This document shows, in pieces, positions 3,269 through 17,166 of a stretch of DNA of 64,000 nucleotides (position 1 is its first letter; every line of letters starts with the position of its first letter). The notes beneath the pieces are model-generated. The model was given only the letters and a program-made list of their open reading frames with translations, was not told where the DNA came from and ran no database searches. A program made the translations under genes and the position numbers. The stretch covers positions 1,054,001 to 1,118,000 of the forward strand of contig NZ_FMHT01000003.1 of the NCBI RefSeq assembly GCF_900091585.1, written 5' to 3'. The DNA comes from Micromonospora nigra (GTDB lineage: Bacteria > Actinomycetota > Actinomycetes > Mycobacteriales > Micromonosporaceae).

Positions 3269-3532
3269 TCAGTTTCCCAGCGCATGCACCTTGGCGATCG
3301 TCTCCTGCACCTGCTGCTTGGCGGGCTCACTACCCTGCGCGGCCCGCATCAGCGCCTCGCGGTACGAGTCGATCATGCCGATCAGGGGCCCGGCACCGAT
3401 GCCCTGCAACGCGCCCGCGACGAGCTGCCGCGCCTCGGCCGCATCCTGCGCAGCCGCCGCCGTCTTCGCCTTCGCCTCGTCCAGCTTCTGCGACGCCGCC
3501 GCCAACCTGGCGATCATCTCCGCTGCGCTCAC
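3269..3532 (-). CDS. Small helical protein, DUF6244-like
   Basis: An 87-residue protein beginning (V)SAAEMIARLAAASQKLDEA, followed by a long Ala/Gln-rich coiled-coil-like helix (TAAAAQDAAEARQLVAGAL) and a second helix ending QQVQETIAKVHALGN. From memory this matches a small uncharacterised Micromonosporaceae family (DUF6244). The GTG at 3532 is chosen because GGGGGAGG stands 5-12 bases upstream. It is the first gene of the four-gene unit running down to 2031. Confidence 0.65.
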   Translation of the reverse strand: MSAAEMIARLAAASQKLDEAKAKTAAAAQDAAEARQLVAGALQGIGAGPLIGMIDSYREALMRAAQGSEPAKQQVQETIAKVHALGN

Positions 3533-10426: not shown

Positions 10427-11208
10427 CCGACGACCCGACGACCGCCCTGCGGAGCCTGCTCGACGGGCGACTCGGCCGGCACGACCGCCGGTTGCGCCGG
10501 TTCACCGAGCCGCAGTGGCTGCGCTACGCCGACCTGCTCGCCGGGGCGCTGCTGGTGGCCGCGCGCCGCCGGTTCGCCGCCGGGCAGGACCGCGCGCCGC
10601 TGATCAGGTTCGTCGCGGCGGCCCGGGAACGCTACGACCTGACCGGCGTGGACGTCGACCCGACGCTGGCCGAGGCACTGCTCGGCGCGGCCCTGGGCGA
10701 GCGCCCGCCGCCGCCCGGCACGGCCGGTGCGGTGACCGCCGGTACGGTGCTGCTGCTGGCGTTGCTCGAGGACGAGGGTCTCACCCCCACCGAACTGGAC
10801 GCCTTCCTCGCCGCCACCGAGACCGCCGCCCGACGCGACGACACGACCTCACCGCCGGGCACGGCAGCAGCGCGGGGCACCGTGTGCGCAGACACCACGA
10901 CCTCAGCGCAGGGCGCGGAACACCAGCAGGTAGCCGCAGTACGCCAGCGGGACGGCCAGGAAGCACACCAGGATGCCCAGCAGGGGGTAGCGCGGTGGCG
11001 TGCCGGCGACCACGGCGGGAGTGCCCCAGCGACCGAGGATCAGCCACCCGGCGATCAACGACACGGCGGGCAGCCCGGCGCACATCCACGTGTAGAGCGT
11101 GCCGAGGCCGAGGGCCCCGACGCCGGAGGCGAGCACCATGACCAGCATCAGCACCACGCCGACGCCGGCACAGCCGAGATAGACGGCGAGCGCCCGAGCC
11201 ATCGGTGA
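10423..11208 (+). CDS. Hypothetical protein, 3' part antisense to the convergent gene
   Basis: An ORF of 261 residues from the ATG at 10423 (GAGGAAGG upstream). The first ~155 residues look real: TALRSLLDGRLGRHDRRLRR, YADLLAGALLVAARRRFA, DLTGVDVDPTLAEALLGA and LTPTELDAFLAATETA. Beyond about 10900 the frame runs antisense through the last ~300 bases of the convergent membrane-protein gene and becomes Gln/His/Arg-rich without plausible structure. Either the overlap is genuine or a small frameshift near 10900 has removed the real stop. No family was recognised. Confidence 0.55.
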   Translation: MTDDPTTALRSLLDGRLGRHDRRLRRFTEPQWLRYADLLAGALLVAARRRFAAGQDRAPLIRFVAAARERYDLTGVDVDPTLAEALLGAALGERPPPPGTAGAVTAGTVLLLALLEDEGLTPTELDAFLAATETAARRDDTTSPPGTAAARGTVCADTTTSAQGAEHQQVAAVRQRDGQEAHQDAQQGVARWRAGDHGGSAPATEDQPPGDQRHGGQPGAHPRVERAEAEGPDAGGEHHDQHQHHADAGTAEIDGERPSHR

Positions 11209-11745
11209 CCAGCTCGGCAGCAGCGCCGGCCGTTGGGCCAGCAGCTCGGTCCGCTGGCCCAACCGGTCGGCCTCGTCGGCCCAGCGCCGCGCCGACTCCA
11301 GCTCCGCCGCCGGATCGGTCTCGCCGGCGCGCGGCGCGGGTACCCCGCCCGGCACCGCCAGTGCCGTCTCCCCCGGCCTCCCCTGGGGGTACGCCCCGAC
11401 CCCCGGCCGCCCCGGCGCGGCGGCTGCGCCGCCGACCGACCCCGTGCCCGGTCGCGGCCCCGCGTCGCGCTGCCCGGCCGACGGCACCCCGACGGTCGAC
11501 GGGATCGGCTGACCCGGCACAGGCTGACCCGGCAGCGGCTGGCCCGGAGGCGGAGGCGGGCTGCCGATCGTGTGGCCGAGCTGGTCGAGGCGCTGCCCCT
11601 GCGCGGTCAGCCGGCGGTCGAGGTAGTCGACGGCGGCGTGCAGATCCTGGCGGCGGGCCGACTCGGCGGCAGCGCCCTGCTCGCCGGCCCGCCGCTGCGT
11701 GGCGAGATGGCGGGCCAGCGCCGCGTAGTCCTCGAAGCTCGACAC
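10903..11745 (-). CDS. Coiled-coil and three-TM protein of the FtsK-like operon
   Basis: A 280-residue protein. Residues 1-60 are helical and charged (FEDYAALARHLATQRRAGEQ, DLHAAVDYLDRRLTAQGQRL, a probable coiled coil). Residues 62-140 form a Pro/Gly-rich linker with PGQPLPGQPVPGQPIP repeats. A second charged helix follows (ELESARRWADEADRLGQRTE). The C-terminal third has three TM helices (YLGCAGVGVVLMLVMVLASG, TWMCAGLPAVSLIAGWLIL, LLGILVCFLAVPLAYCGYLL). The GTG at 11745 directly abuts the stop of the FtsK-like gene (TGAGTG), so the two are co-translated. It probably anchors or organises the ATPase at the membrane, which is inference from operon layout. Confidence 0.8.
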   Translation of the reverse strand: MSSFEDYAALARHLATQRRAGEQGAAAESARRQDLHAAVDYLDRRLTAQGQRLDQLGHTIGSPPPPPGQPLPGQPVPGQPIPSTVGVPSAGQRDAGPRPGTGSVGGAAAAPGRPGVGAYPQGRPGETALAVPGGVPAPRAGETDPAAELESARRWADEADRLGQRTELLAQRPALLPSWSPMARALAVYLGCAGVGVVLMLVMVLASGVGALGLGTLYTWMCAGLPAVSLIAGWLILGRWGTPAVVAGTPPRYPLLGILVCFLAVPLAYCGYLLVFRALR

Positions 11746-14367
11746 TCAGCTCTCCCCGTCCGGCGCGTGCCCGTCGCGGGTGAACGGCACGATGAGGCGT
11801 ACCCGCTGGTCGTGCCGGTCGACCAGCAGCGCCCGGTCGGCGCGCGGCTGGTAGGCCAGGTCGTGCACGCCCAGGTGCAACCCCAGCTCGGCCCCGGTCA
11901 CGTTCAGGGCGACCAGGCAGGCCACGTCGTCGCGGTTCTGGGTGCCGCCGATGTCGTCGGCAAGCCGCCGCAGGCCGCGCCACCAGCCCAGCAGGTGCAC
12001 GCCGCGCCCCGGCCCCTGGCGCAGCAGGGCGCGCAGGTCCTCGTGGGCGGCGCGGAACGTCACCGGGTCGGCGGCGGCGAGCACGGCGGCAGCGGCGTCC
12101 ATCCCGAACACGACGAGGTAGGTGCGGGCCGACCCCGCAGCCCCCGCCGGGCCGGTCGCCGCGCTCGGGCCGGTCGCCGCGTTGGGGTCGGCCGCCGCGC
12201 CGGGGGCCGCGTTCGAGCCGGGTGCAGGCGCGGCCAGCTCCACGACGCGGTCGCGCAGGGCGTGCGCGTCGAGGCGTTCCACGGGGTGGCCGGCGGCCAC
12301 GAGCGCGGCGACCGTGTCGTCGACGGCGGGATCGGCGGCGGCCACGAGAGGCGCGAGCAGGAACCGCGCCTCGCCGGGGCGGTGCTGGCGGGCGAGGCTG
12401 AGGGTGGCCGCGCGCAGCACCTCGGCGGCGGTGGCGGCGGTGCCCACGACAGCCAGGTGCCGGCCAGGGCTGGTGTCCAGCATGAACAGCGCGGACGTGC
12501 CGTCCACGTCGACGGTGCGGCCGACCAGCGCCAGGGGACGCCGGCCGCCGGGGCGCAGCCCGACGAACGTGGCGTCGTCCTCGACGCGGGCGCCCTCGTA
12601 CCCCCGGAACACCGACGGCGGGCGGGCCCCCTGCGGGCGGGCCTGCCACAGCTCGTGGCGCAGCCGGGCCAACGCGCCGGTCTCGGCGTGGGCGTCGGGG
12701 AACCGGACGACGGTGTCGGCCCCGGCGGCCCCGGCGGCGGTGTTGAGCACGGCCGTGCCGACGGCCAGGGTTGCGGCGGCGGAGTTGTCGCGGTCGAGCA
12801 CGCCCCCGCCGCCGGGCAGCGCCACCCGCAGGGCGAACTGCCCGAACACGGCCTCGGCCCGCCCGTAGAGGGCCTCGATGCCGGTCATGGCCTGGCTGGC
12901 CAACACCAGGTGCACCCCGTAGGAGCGGCCCTTGCGGGCCAACTCCTCCAGCAGGTCGACCGACTCCCGGGCGATGGCGTCGTTGCCGGCCAGCAGCACC
13001 TGGAACTCGTCGACCACCGCCACGACCCGGGGCGCGGGCACGTCGGCGGGCAGGTCGGCGAGCTTCGTGACGCCGTGCCGCTTGAGCAGGGTCGCCCGGC
13101 GGTGCAGTTCGCGACGTAGCTCGCGCAGCACGGCGACGCCGTACTCGCGGTCGCTCTCGATGCCGACCGTGCGGGCGTGCGGCAACCAGGACGGGTCGCG
13201 CTCGGTCGGTACGAACTCGGTGAAGCTCACGCCCTCCTTGAAGTCGAGCAGGTAGAGCTGCAACTCGGCCGGGGAGTAGCGGGCGGCCAGCCCGTAGAGG
13301 ACGTCGAGCAGGAAGACCGTCTTGCCGGCACCCGTGCGCCCGCCGACGAGCCAGTGCGGGGTGGCGTCGTCGAAGGCGACCGGAGCGGGATCGCGGCCGG
13401 CCCGCCCGACGACGGTACGCAGGCCCGCCCGCCCCGACTCCGCCCACCGGCGCGGGGGCAGCAGCTCGGCGAAACCCACGGCGGCGTGCCGGCGGGCGGC
13501 GGCGTCGAGATGCCCCGCGAGGGCCGACACGGCCGCCGGTGGCGGATCGCCGTCGAGCAGCACCGGCACGGCCAACCCGCTGCCGTCGGCGCTGAACGGC
13601 GCCCCGGGCGGGTCACCGACGTGGGCGTACCCGTCGGGGGTCAGCCGCAGCGCGGTGGTGGTGCCCAGCGGCGGCGGTGGGGTGGCCGACGACCCGGTCG
13701 GCCAGCCACCGACCAGCACGCAGACGGCGGCGGCCGGGCCGGCGTGGGTGAGCGCGGCGAGCCGGGCGGCCTCACGGGGCGGTGGGGCGGACGCGGCCAC
13801 CACCAGCAGCAGCTCCTGGTCGTCGCGGTCGCTCTGCCGGGCGGCGCGGGCGTGCCGCTCGGCGTCGTCGAGCAGCGCGGCCACCTCCGCCTCGGTGGTG
13901 GCGGGCGGGTCGAGCACCCCGGCGTCGACCAGCGGGCGCAGCGGCCCGAACGTGGCCCCGAGGGCGGCGGCGTCGAGACCGGCGACCCGCAGCCCGCCGG
14001 GCGGCGCGGTGGCGAGCATCCGCAGGACGACGGCCCGCAGCAGCGCGGCGGCCCGCGGGTCACGGGCGTCGACGTCGACGGACAGGTGGTGACCGCCGCC
14101 GAGGGGCACCAGCACGGGGAACCCGCCGCCGGCGGTGATCGCCTCGCCGAGGCGCACCGGCAGCGGCGTACCGGTCAGCGGGGTGCCCGGGGCCGGGGCG
14201 GCCAGCGCGCCGCCGACGCGGGCCAGCCGGGCGACCAGGTCGGGGTCGGCCGGCGGCGGGGCCGGCGGCGGCGCGGCGCGCAACGCGGCACGGGCGTTGT
14301 CGAGGTGGACGCGGGCGGCCCGGTGGGCGGACACCGCCTGCCCGTACGCCGACGCGAGCCTGCCCAC
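11746..14367 (-). CDS. FtsK/SpoIIIE-type ATPase
   Basis: An 873-residue protein with one clear FtsK/SpoIIIE motor domain. Walker A is GGRTGAGKTVFLLDVL (about residue 390), followed by LYLLDFKEGVSFTEF, typical of FtsK-like ATPases. Walker B is RVVAVVDEFQVLLAG and the sensor region is YGVHLVLASQAMTGIEALYG. A second, degenerate ATPase-like lobe follows (HLAVVGTAATAAEVLRAATL, TYLVVFGMDAA) without an intact P-loop. There is no N-terminal TM region and no gamma domain, unlike chromosomal FtsK, so it is closer to EccC- or TraB-like motors. The GTG at 14367 is chosen for the GGAGGGG ribosome site. Upstream in-frame codons would overlap the previous gene. Confidence 0.85.
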   Translation of the reverse strand: MGRLASAYGQAVSAHRAARVHLDNARAALRAAPPPAPPPADPDLVARLARVGGALAAPAPGTPLTGTPLPVRLGEAITAGGGFPVLVPLGGGHHLSVDVDARDPRAAALLRAVVLRMLATAPPGGLRVAGLDAAALGATFGPLRPLVDAGVLDPPATTEAEVAALLDDAERHARAARQSDRDDQELLLVVAASAPPPREAARLAALTHAGPAAAVCVLVGGWPTGSSATPPPPLGTTTALRLTPDGYAHVGDPPGAPFSADGSGLAVPVLLDGDPPPAAVSALAGHLDAAARRHAAVGFAELLPPRRWAESGRAGLRTVVGRAGRDPAPVAFDDATPHWLVGGRTGAGKTVFLLDVLYGLAARYSPAELQLYLLDFKEGVSFTEFVPTERDPSWLPHARTVGIESDREYGVAVLRELRRELHRRATLLKRHGVTKLADLPADVPAPRVVAVVDEFQVLLAGNDAIARESVDLLEELARKGRSYGVHLVLASQAMTGIEALYGRAEAVFGQFALRVALPGGGGVLDRDNSAAATLAVGTAVLNTAAGAAGADTVVRFPDAHAETGALARLRHELWQARPQGARPPSVFRGYEGARVEDDATFVGLRPGGRRPLALVGRTVDVDGTSALFMLDTSPGRHLAVVGTAATAAEVLRAATLSLARQHRPGEARFLLAPLVAAADPAVDDTVAALVAAGHPVERLDAHALRDRVVELAAPAPGSNAAPGAAADPNAATGPSAATGPAGAAGSARTYLVVFGMDAAAAVLAAADPVTFRAAHEDLRALLRQGPGRGVHLLGWWRGLRRLADDIGGTQNRDDVACLVALNVTGAELGLHLGVHDLAYQPRADRALLVDRHDQRVRLIVPFTRDGHAPDGES

Positions 14368-14479
14368 CCTCTGCCCCTCCGCCGACGCCGGTCCGATCCT
14401 GGGAAACCCTAACGGACCGCGCCGGTGTCGGCACAGTCCGAACCGGACGCGTCGGACCGGACACGCCGGACAGTACGCG

Positions 14480-17166
14480 TCAGGGGGCGGGCGGGGGCAC
14501 CGGGCCGCAGGCCGCCGCCGTCGACGGATCACCGTCCCCGCACCGGAACACCTCCACCGGCTCGACCGTCACCTCGGGCACCCGTTCGACGCGCATCAGC
14601 GAGATCGGCTTGTCCAACGGCTCACCCGAGTCGGGGGTGTAGCGGATCGGTCCGGCGACGCCGGGGTGCCCCCGGCCGGTGGTCTGCCGCAGCACCTCGG
14701 CGTGCACGCTGACCGGGTTGACCGAGGTGGGTTCCCACCGTCGGCGCGGGTCGGCGTGCCGCAGCCGGGCGGCGAGGCTCTCCATGGCCCGCACCAGCAT
14801 CATGGCGGCGTCGTAGGCGAGGCTGACCCGTTCGCCGACCGGGACCGGGCTCTCGGGCCGGCAACGCGGCGGGTCGAGCAGGTTGCGGGCCTGAACAAGG
14901 TCGAGGAAGCCGGCACGGGTGTCGTCACGGCGCGACGCGGCGTCCCGCAGGGCCGGGCAGGTGGCCAGGGCCGCCTTGGACACGTAGGTGACGGGGATGT
15001 TGCCGGGCGCGGCGTCGCGCAACGCCGGGTTGGCCATGTAGCGGTTGACGGAGTCGTCGGCCACCAGGTGTCGTGGCGGGTTGTCGCCACACTCGCGCAG
15101 GGCCCGCATGAACCCGTTGAACTCCGACCAACGCCCGGCGTAGAAGAGGAGGCCGGGGAAGCCACACTCGGCGGTGAGCCGGTGGCCCGTGCGCCACTCG
15201 TCGACCGAGGTGATGCGGCTGCCGAAGCGTTGCCGCAGCCCTTCCACGAGGGTACCGACGTACAGGTCGTCGGCCAGGGAGCTGTTCTCGCCGGTGGTCC
15301 AGTACACGTGTGCCTCGTCGACCCGCAACACGTTCCGCGCGTACGCCTCGACCATCCGGACCTGGTCCGCGTTGGGCGCGGACACCTGGAGGTAGAGCCG
15401 CGAGTGGGCGTCGATGCGGTCGGCCGACAGGGTGGGGGCGAGCACGGGCAGGCCCACCCGGTTCAGCTCGCGCAGGGCGTCGGCGGTGCTGCGGCGGCTC
15501 TCCACCATCCCGACGACACCGAGCACGGTGGGATCGTCCCGGGCGAGATCGGCCAGCATGGACACCGCCTGGCCGGCGTGACGCATCTGCCGGCCACCGT
15601 TGGCGACGACGATCCGCAGCAGGGCCGCCCCGTCGGCGCTGGCCGGCTCCAGGAGCAGGGCCCGCTGGGCGGTCGCCATGCCCTCCAGTTCCTCCCGCTC
15701 GGAGACGTAGGACTCCTCGTCGGCCCGGGTCCGGTTGCCGGTGAGGGTGCCGAGGTAGACCAGGGTCAGGTAGGGGCGGCGGCGGTCGCTGCGCTGCCAG
15801 ATGTCCTCGGCGGCGCGGTTCTGGGCGAAGATGCGCCGCTGCACCGCGCGCAGTCGCTCCTGACCCGGGTCGGTGTTGAACACCTGCGCGGCGGTGTCGC
15901 TGTAGCCGACGCACTCCCCGTCGACCATCCGCACCGACACCCGCCCCGTCAACGCGGGATGGCAGCCGGGGGCCCAGCGGGAGCCCACCCAGAGGCCGCC
16001 CGCGGCGACCAGCACCAGGCACAGGGCGGCGGGCAGGAAGCGGCGCGACCACCAGGGCGGCTCGGGGGCGGCGAAGGCGCGTACCCCGCCGCGTGGCGGT
16101 GGCCCGGCGTCGGTGCTGTCGGGACGCAACACCACCAGCCACGCCGCGGCGCGGCGCAGCCGCCGCATCTCCGGCAGTGCCTCCGACCAGTCGCCGAACG
16201 CCTCGTCGGCGTCGGCGAGGGGTGCGGCCGGGGCAGTTCGGGCGGCGGTGCGTCGGCCACGGCGACGACCAGCAGCGGATCGTTGCGGCCGGTCTCGTTG
16301 CGGACGTCGTTGAGCAGGCGGGTCAGGGTGTGACCGACGCCGTCGGGGGCGACGTGGTCGAGCAGGAGGACGGGGTACGCGGTGCGCCGCCAGTCCGACG
16401 GTCGCCACAGCCGTCGCCGGTACGCCTGGCGCAGGTCTTCGAGGAAGGCGTGCAGCAGCAGCTTGTTGACCTGGTCGGGCTGTTCGCCGTCGCGCCAGCC
16501 GGCGGTCAGCCGTTCGGCGAAGCCGAGGAACGTCACGGACTGCCGGGGGGCGAGGTACTGCTGGCGCATGAACCAGCGGTAGTGCTGCCCGACGACGGGC
16601 ACCCGGCCGGACACGGCGATCCGGAACACCACGCCGGGAACGGCGTGGCGGACCAGCCACAGCAGCACCTGCGTGACGAGGCCGACGGTGTCGGAGGCGG
16701 CGGGTGCCGGTTCCCCGGCGGGCCGGCCGCCCCGGCGGTCGCGCAGGCGACGGACCAGCGTGGACCGGCCGTCCTCGGCGTCGACGCCGGGACTGAGGCT
16801 CTGCTGCATCAGCCAGTCGGCCAGCGGATAGTGCCGGAACCGCAGCCGGGCGGTGCCGAACGCCTCCAGGGACAGCTGCCGGTGCAGGTCCCGCAGCAGG
16901 ATCGGCACGTCGGTGCCGGTGGGCTGGGCCGCGACGTCGAGCACGGCGTGCGGGACGCGCCGCCGTGGCCCCTGGCCGAGGAAACGGCGCAGCAACGCCA
17001 TCGGGTCGGCGGTGTCGGCGGGTCGGACCAGCCAGATCACCGGGAGGCGTCGCTCGCTGCGGCGCGGCCGGCGCAGCAGCCGCGCGAGCAGGGCGAGCAG
17101 GTCCAGCCCGCCGGCCGGGAGCAGGTCCCGCGCTGGCGGGGTGTGCTGGTCGGTCGACTCGCGCAT
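14480..17166 (-). pseudogene. Membrane receptor-like protein: degenerate NTPase domain, TM helix and Venus-flytrap domain; one frameshift
   Basis: Two frames make one ~895-residue protein. The N-terminal ~310 residues (from ATG 17166 after AGGGGGTGG) resemble a P-loop fold with a degenerate loop (PVIWLVRPADTADPMALLRR) and a Walker-B-like strand (YPVLLLDHVAPDGVGHTLTR, then DPLLVVAVAD). A one-base loss at about 16225-16237 moves on to LADADEAFGDWSEALPEMRR, a TM helix (FLPAALCLVLVAAGGLWVGS) and an extracellular type I periplasmic-binding fold of ~480 residues (GVVGMVESRRSTADALRELN, RVGLPVLAPTLSADRID, LYLQVSAPNADQVRMVEAYA, HVYWTTGENSSLADDLYVGT, ending GPIRYTPDSGEPLDKP). I infer a ligand-sensing receptor. 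The frameshift may be real or a sequencing error. It is the first gene of the operon with the FtsK-like ATPase. Confidence 0.7.

Follow-up and report, generated by a model that had tools for sequence, protein, structure and literature searches.

The Venus-flytrap fold of type I periplasmic-binding proteins (PBPs) is found in LivJ and in the ectodomains of metabotropic glutamate receptors (mGluRs), and it is also the fold predicted for the ectodomain of a putative receptor encoded in Micromonospora nigra. The gene lies in a 64,000-nucleotide stretch of contig NZ_FMHT01000003.1 (positions 1,054,001 to 1,118,000), which is called the window here and whose own numbering is used throughout. On its minus strand the gene order is gltB, gltD (both named by sequence recognition), a GDSL lipase gene, the receptor gene, a gene for an FtsK/SpoIIIE-type ATPase and a gene for a protein with three transmembrane (TM) segments (3-TM protein). 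However, unlike LivJ and the mGluRs, the receptor ectodomain is anchored by one TM helix that connects it to a cytoplasmic domain, and no Liv permease is located beside it.

Other described systems resemble the receptor in part. The available text of Kaur et al. 2020 describes a System 4 (EACC1 two-gene) in which caspase-TM-PBP proteins are one of up to 50 C-terminal variants (PMC7159879). Both cases combine an actinobacterial cytoplasmic module, a TM helix and an extracellular PBP, but the receptor has a degenerate STAND core instead of a caspase or cyclase (Pfam scans found no caspase in its N-terminal domain), and the gene upstream of it in the window is a lipase (Lipase_GDSL_2, E 2.1e-23) instead of EACC1, which was checked in the window only. 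Inactive STAND proteins (iSTAND) are described in sections of PMC7159879 and PMC8195603, and in the latter inactive STAND domains are proposed as nucleic-acid receptors. The receptor is similar to them in having a STAND-derived domain of the nucleoside triphosphatase (NTPase) type without catalytic motifs; on the other hand, no MoxR-vWA system was seen beside it, and its core is joined directly to the TM helix and the flytrap. Finally, GlnH-GlnX-PknG from Corynebacterium glutamicum is, in the text available, an actinobacterial precedent for signalling from a PBP to a kinase (PMC9769921). PBP-based transmembrane signalling in Actinobacteria is the common trait, a likeness of description, whereas that system is multi-component and has a separate PBP. 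Caspase-TM-PBP variants and inactive STAND proteins are consequently already known. Among the papers listed in searches of the open-licence PMC literature, no description was found of the two-gene STAND form, of the degenerate-STAND fusion or of TIR, kinase and EAD1 fusions with a PBP ectodomain.

An earlier interpretation made from the letters of the DNA (the sequence-only reading) had joined the receptor, the ATPase and the 3-TM protein in one operon. We consider it probable, with some reservations given below, that the locus is to be read in another way: as a single-pass flytrap receptor with a degenerate STAND adaptor, member of a modular family, lying beside an ATPase/3-TM pair that is independent of it, the window copy probably being a pseudogene.

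Architecture of the receptor

Relatives of the receptor occur in Micromonospora, Plantactinospora, Streptomyces, Nocardia, Saccharothrix, Lentzea, Amycolatopsis and other genera (129 relatives, 79 loci kept); their neighbours vary by genus and no universal partner gene was seen. The extracellular part (14483..15964) opens with a C...GECVGYSD signature and, as modelled, is a type I PBP with the Venus-flytrap fold. The model of the C-terminal part, made with the window sequence and a 39-row alignment, consists of one TM helix and the flytrap (predicted local distance difference test, pLDDT, 88.3; predicted template-modelling score, pTM, 0.84). The best PDB matches of the modelled ectodomain in Foldseek were LivJ-type binding proteins and mGluR ectodomains (E around 2e-15), and 613 matches had E <= 0.001. 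Support from sequence profiles was weaker, with E 7.5e-9 for LivJ (4gnr) and E 0.0024 for a kainate receptor, and Pfam scans of 12 members at E <= 1 gave Peripla_BP_6 in one and ANF_receptor in two. The TM helix FLPAALCLVLVAAGGLWVG (15983..16039; helix 67-87 of the model) is the single TM segment, with a mean Kyte-Doolittle hydropathy of 2.13, and a weaker hydrophobic stretch (1.71) is present in the N-terminal domain (N-domain). A KAP-NTPase, suggested by a hydrophobic insert, was set aside as a reading of the N-domain.

The sequence-only reading stated that this binding domain is not a normal transporter part. In agreement with this, no Liv-type ABC permease adjoins it in the window, and in a search limited to this type one was found in 1 of the 79 loci (L056; L and G numbers are our labels for loci and genomes), about 7.5 kb away. 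A plasmid record that matches a receptor weakly (28%, partial), the sole record of this kind found, is annotated as an ABC transporter substrate-binding protein. Some proteins also go under the NCBI name of bifunctional serine/threonine-protein kinase/ABC transporter substrate-binding protein.

The cytoplasmic N-domain (16246..17166) is, to judge from coding statistics, motifs, a structure model and profile alignment, a degenerate STAND/AAA+ P-loop core. When 42 N-domains were compared by HHalign with the 12 STAND proteins of the two-gene form treated below, the match (99.3%, E 4e-20) was collinear through the Walker A and Walker B regions and covered the whole N-domain, corresponding to columns 8-290 of 654 in the STAND profile. 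In the fused receptor the TM helix comes next, and the C-terminal half of STAND proteins (winged helix and helical domain) is missing. The N-domain profile also matched a single protein bearing GPPGSGKT (E 5.5e-19, that sequence being the only one searched). The Walker A motif GxxxxGK[ST] is present in 0 of the 42 N-domains and the Walker B aspartate in 29, including the window, where a Walker B-like VLLLD is found. The N-domain model, from a 42-row alignment, has pLDDT 80.2 and pTM 0.79, and 48 of the 50 Foldseek targets listed for it are P-loop ATPases, judged from their titles. The extracellular type I binding fold, the one TM helix and the P-loop-like cytoplasmic domain without a good Walker A that had been proposed for this protein are all in line with these results.

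One flytrap module with different cytoplasmic partners

When the whole class was searched with the ectodomain, matches came from 53 of 246 genomes and from 22 of 95 genera. Among 30 loci from this search, the degenerate STAND-like N-domain profile matched in 20, one further locus being the window itself; an NB-ARC-like domain was found in one, EAD1 in two, a Ser/Thr kinase in one and a short tail only in five. Twenty further places were fetched, of which one overlaps an earlier locus (the remaining class-wide places are mostly weaker matches): STAND-like in five, TIR in one, kinase in one, TIR plus kinase in two, DUF4062 in one, a short tail only in seven and three unassigned. According to Pfam, these partners include TIR_2 (E 2.7e-34), TIR_2 together with Pkinase in two proteins, Pkinase (E 1.5e-49 and 9.3e-53), EAD1 in two (E 1.3e-8 and 4.2e-13) and DUF4062 (E 3e-13); the NB-ARC-like partner (E 7e-4) is under the Pfam cut-off and a DUF7779 match is just over its own. 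The nine open reading frames (ORFs) with partners named by Pfam have one TM segment each (hydropathy at least 1.8).

The short TM-flytrap genes were analysed in 16 loci of 8.5 to 11.5 kb, 15 of them from the class-wide search and one from another search, four having been picked on ORF length alone. In 12 of the 16, a P-loop gene of 640-860 codons, whose open frame abuts or overlaps that of the flytrap, lies upstream on the same strand. The STAND label of these 12 partners rests on AAA_22 in 10 and AAA_16 in 8 (E <= 0.01), together with motifs that we take to be typical of STAND proteins; GK[ST] is present in nine, eight of which keep the first G, and the profile of the fused N-domain directly detects five. 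The occurrence of the same two parts in fused and split forms is a classic sign that they cooperate. Because the TM-flytrap module occurs beside a STAND gene and in other fusions too, the window gene is placed in a modular actinobacterial receptor family, in which one module is joined to differing cytoplasmic signalling domains.

Two arrangements deserve a separate mention. In L179, L188 and L196 TIR or TIR plus kinase is combined with an extracellular flytrap, which is a Toll-like layout in bacteria; and in L200 (7520-11009) one STAND gene is followed by two tandem TM-flytrap genes.

The broken receptor gene and the neighbouring ATPase/3-TM pair

The sequence-only reading described one large receptor protein. 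In the window, however, the gene is frameshifted near 16,240 and split over two frames, the N-terminal part in the frame of 16246-17166 and the C-terminal part from 14480 to about 16,240, while 12 aligned relatives have a single open frame. The break (16225..16250) is positioned where the two frames cease matching the relatives. The coding signature is intact in both parts, with a score of 141 for the N-terminal part in its frame and at most 23.7 in the other five. The break may be a sequencing indel or a real lesion.

Two-frame receptor genes were found in the window, L064, L065, L066 and L071, plus L068, whose sequence contains N runs. Leaving L068 aside, 5 of 36 receptor genes are affected, compared with 1/51 for the ATPase, 0/47 for gltD, 0/46 for gltB and 0/37 for the lipase. 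The excess over the pooled control genes (5/36 vs 1/181) has p 0.0005, the controls taking in 18 loci without the receptor as well as genes truncated at contig ends, and against the ATPase alone p is 0.078. L026, L044, L047 and L058, with one stop each inside the alignment, were counted as unbroken, given that the alignment may overrun the natural end. In the ATPase tree, the window falls in a starred clade of 14 rows in which all three receptor genes (window, L065 and L071) are two-frame; in L046, just outside this clade, the receptor is intact, and the nearest relatives of the window ATPase, L134 and L118, have no receptor. Presence and absence of the receptor require 8 changes on the 48-row tree, 7 of them forced by starred branches, compared with 14.9 for shuffled labels. 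It is a quick tree with one long branch flagged and 18 absent rows selected for lacking the receptor, and the count does not separate gain from loss. The receptor is often lost or gained.

The window copy is probably a pseudogene or nearly so. That it is a dead relic without any function is a matter of even chances: the frameshift, the excess of two-frame genes and the receptor-less closest relatives L118 and L134 speak for it, while the coding signature kept in both parts, the fact that one indel could be a sequencing error, the weaker contrast with the ATPase gene alone and the mixed control set speak against it. Such a relic would be compatible with either of the sensor readings of the family weighed below.

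The ATPase (11746..14367) is an EccC/FtsK-like protein, assigned by Pfam, curated models, synteny and motif and near-universal in the genus; it has an FtsK_SpoIIIE motor domain (12991..13389, E 1.4e-22) and one Walker A, GRTGAGKT. Its stop abuts the start of the 3-TM gene (10903..11745), with TGA/GTG at 11743-11748. The 3-TM protein shows three hydrophobic segments (mean hydropathy 2.52, 2.41 and 1.73), and a coiled coil and a Pro-rich linker were recognised in it by eye. Gene order, abutment and the nature of both proteins are as the sequence-only reading gave them. Its statement that the ATPase lacks a TM region of its own is likely right: none of the six best stretches lies within the first 257 residues, but the top one, Ala-rich (1.72, at residue 806), is not cleanly separated on the hydropathy scale. 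Translation probably starts at 14367: the region ahead of this position is conserved, as a promoter-like element, in loci with and without the receptor, which speaks against the longer ORF from 14532. This element, TTAGGGT (14406..14412), lies about 40 nucleotides upstream of the start and was detected by alignment of upstream regions; TAGGGT occurs in 37 of 38 aligned rows, 11 of them from receptor-less loci, and is missing in L046. The rows are those in which the ATPase start was found, and at least two repeat a genome (L023/L063, L029/L054). The element is labelled -10-like on the basis of TANNNT, which we take to be the -10 consensus, and the pair probably has its own promoter.

Among curated models the ATPase is nearest to EccCa (E 5.3e-25), ahead of FtsK, with 88 bits against an EccC cut-off of 509; in the PDB it matches EccC5 (7np7, E 7e-12) and 4nh0 (E 2.8e-20), titled cell division FtsK/SpoIIIE. 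It shares the FtsK_SpoIIIE motor with EccC of type VII secretion, FtsK and SpoIIIE. However, it is far under the EccC cut-off and has no Ecc genes among its neighbours (gltBD, GDSL lipase and 3-TM protein), and unlike FtsK it has no N-terminal TM region and a separate 3-TM partner; the FtsK gamma domain is absent from its Pfam listing at E <= 0.1. CmdB of Streptomyces, considered as a relative of the ATPase, was set aside; its reported homology is with VirB4-like proteins (PMC2782261). SmeA/SffA, considered as a model for the ATPase/3-TM pair, was set aside too.

The proposed three-gene operon and the distribution of its parts

To count orthologues in 151 Micromonospora genomes, a match with E <= 1e-43 over the C-terminal third (a threshold set by us) was used for the ATPase and at least 65% identity for the receptor; counts were made by hand, the 3-TM gene was left out, and G108, with a 72% fragment only, was scored as receptor-less. 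The ATPase is present in 134 genomes and the receptor in 53 (both in 48, receptor only in 5, ATPase only in 86, neither in 12), without association (Fisher p 0.79). As for the genomes with the receptor only, G012 has a truncated ATPase, G068, G070 and G125 are drafts of more than 200 contigs, and G159 is a single contig with a weak ATPase match (E 3.7e-33). From receptor-less genomes that have an ATPase orthologue, 18 loci were fetched; in every one gltD comes first, then the ATPase gene and then the 3-TM gene, and 14 also have the lipase. No receptor match was found in these stretches, G006 having a 45% homologue elsewhere in its genome. Set against L118, the receptor stands out as a cassette of about 2.8 kb that lies after the lipase stop and before the upstream region belonging to the ATPase itself. 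In the 32 Micromonospora loci with a close receptor (31 from the related-locus search plus the window), the ATPase directly follows the receptor in 20 (three at a contig end), other genes intervene in 9, and the ATPase was not found within the stretch in 3 (L048, L058 and L061, the last showing its start only). The other 48 receptor loci (46 outside Micromonospora plus L080 and L082, Micromonospora with a distant receptor) have no ATPase or 3-TM homologue in their flanks, which extend up to 10 kb and are shorter in some.

The ATPase/3-TM pair therefore appears to be a unit independent of the receptor, and the three-gene operon of the sequence-only reading was rejected on presence and absence, synteny and promoter evidence. 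Conserved synteny, which had been expected to support it, does not, because the ATPase is near-universal regardless of the receptor, the receptor-less loci keep the pair and the 48 other receptor loci are devoid of it. The associated model, in which the receptor gates the pair as a single ligand-controlled membrane machine, is largely refuted and very improbable. Both components involve the membrane, and they are adjacent on the same strand in 20 of the 32 close loci, the window included; but presence is unassociated, the pair persists without the receptor and has its own promoter-like element, genes intervene or the ATPase is not found in the remaining loci, and two paralogous ATPase/3-TM couples of the same genome have no adjoining receptor. 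The ATPases of these couples are 43-44% identical to that of the window, and next to each lies a gene whose product has three predicted TM segments; neither of these products has detectable sequence similarity to the window 3-TM protein.

Some further observations concern the pair and its paralogues. Two minus-strand genes of the window lie downstream of the 3-TM gene, one for a DUF6244 protein (PF19757, E 1.3e-30; 3269-3532) and one, unnamed, for a protein of 154 amino acids (2031-2495); they may be part of the ATPase unit, because both recur behind the pair in many Micromonospora loci. Transposase-like genes, named by eye, lie between the DUF6244 gene and the 3-TM gene in this genome (4100-4873 and 6462-7259), which is not so in L118. 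One paralogous couple (L224:6437-11124) is accompanied by an 86-residue protein that weakly resembles the DUF6244 protein (phmmer E 3e-5, with high bias) and might serve a minimal motor of the EccC-like kind as a small-protein substrate or partner. The other (L222:6994-10388), the third couple of the genome, has a probable type VII secretion locus about 16 kb beyond, where similarity and inspection by eye point to a large EccC-like ORF. In L025 (G012) the ATPase gene is reduced to its N-terminal third, without motor, and the 3-TM gene still follows.

Possible roles of the receptor family

The flytrap protein is likely a receptor. In the intact relatives, a single-pass protein at the cell surface would bind a small ligand with its type I flytrap ectodomain; by its fold the ligand would most likely be an amino acid or a similar compound. 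Closure of the flytrap on the ligand would move the TM helix, to which the cytoplasmic module would respond. The degenerate STAND core, because its P-loop is lost and binding of a nucleoside triphosphate (NTP) in the P-loop way is impossible, would act as a scaffold or adaptor, presenting a partner or releasing it. In the split form the response would depend on a STAND switch; the TIR and kinase forms would use an enzyme, and the form of the window could only bind partners. As for its origin, a two-gene system of STAND NTPase and TM-flytrap most likely came first, its genes later fusing and both the P-loop and the C-terminal half of the STAND protein being lost.

Several results weigh against the reading adopted here. 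The partner survey covers one sample of 246 genomes and part of its matches, with 3 of the 20 further loci lacking a partner assignment, and no STAND gene lies alongside in 4 of the 16 short TM-flytrap loci (L208, L211, L212 and L213). Foldseek with the N-domain alone was not significant (best match RdrA, E 0.016, probability 0.87), Pfam gave no confident family (best, chance-level match E 0.0036, in 1 of 42) and a sequence search of the PDB gave zero matches, so the NTPase ancestry of the N-domain rests on profile comparisons. Moreover, the direct succession of receptor and ATPase in most close loci makes some co-regulation there possible.

Two readings of what the family senses have to be weighed, both of them tentative. 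According to one, amino acids outside the cell are detected by the flytrap, and the pseudo-NTPase core regulates metabolism in response, much as GlnH and GlnX do for PknG, the precedent cited above (PMC9769921, in the text available). The LivJ/mGluR-like fold, the kinase partners and the position of gltBD near the receptor in Micromonospora suit this nutrient sensor; in the loci of other genera, however, no member of the gltB/gltD cluster is near the receptor, and sister proteins carry TIR and EAD1. These two domains are known from immune or cell-death systems.

They lead to the alternative, held as equally tentative, that effectors of the STAND, TIR or EAD1 type respond to a cue from outside the cell (phage, competitor or kin signal), the degenerate STAND core being an iSTAND-like adaptor or a nucleic-acid binder. 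The same ectodomain is fused to TIR, EAD1 and NB-ARC-like domains and lies beside STAND-like genes, and the receptor is patchy, repeatedly lost or gained, and broken, as might suit a conflict system. The caspase-TM-PBP fusions of System 4 (PMC7159879) and the nucleic-acid receptors proposed among inactive STAND domains (PMC8195603), as far as the available texts describe them, point in the same direction. Nevertheless, no PADLOC family matches the receptor, no effector was recognised beside it in the window, and the Ser/Thr kinase fusions fit ordinary signalling equally.

With regard to the family as a whole, bacterial STAND and TIR proteins have mostly been studied as sensors of intracellular events. 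It is conceivable, although we hold it with less than even confidence, that actinobacteria possess modular receptors in which an mGluR/LivJ-like flytrap and its TM helix are wired to interchangeable immune-type modules (a STAND NTPase in trans, a degenerate STAND core in cis, TIR, TIR plus kinase, kinase or EAD1), as Toll-like counterparts that sense an extracellular small molecule and direct defence or cell fate. A protein of this kind can carry an ABC transporter substrate-binding annotation, as in the single, partially matching plasmid record, though no transporter is implied. If the proposal is true, the sensing of small molecules outside the cell would be linked to STAND, TIR and kinase outputs, a link that the two-gene form, with its intact Walker A, makes directly testable.

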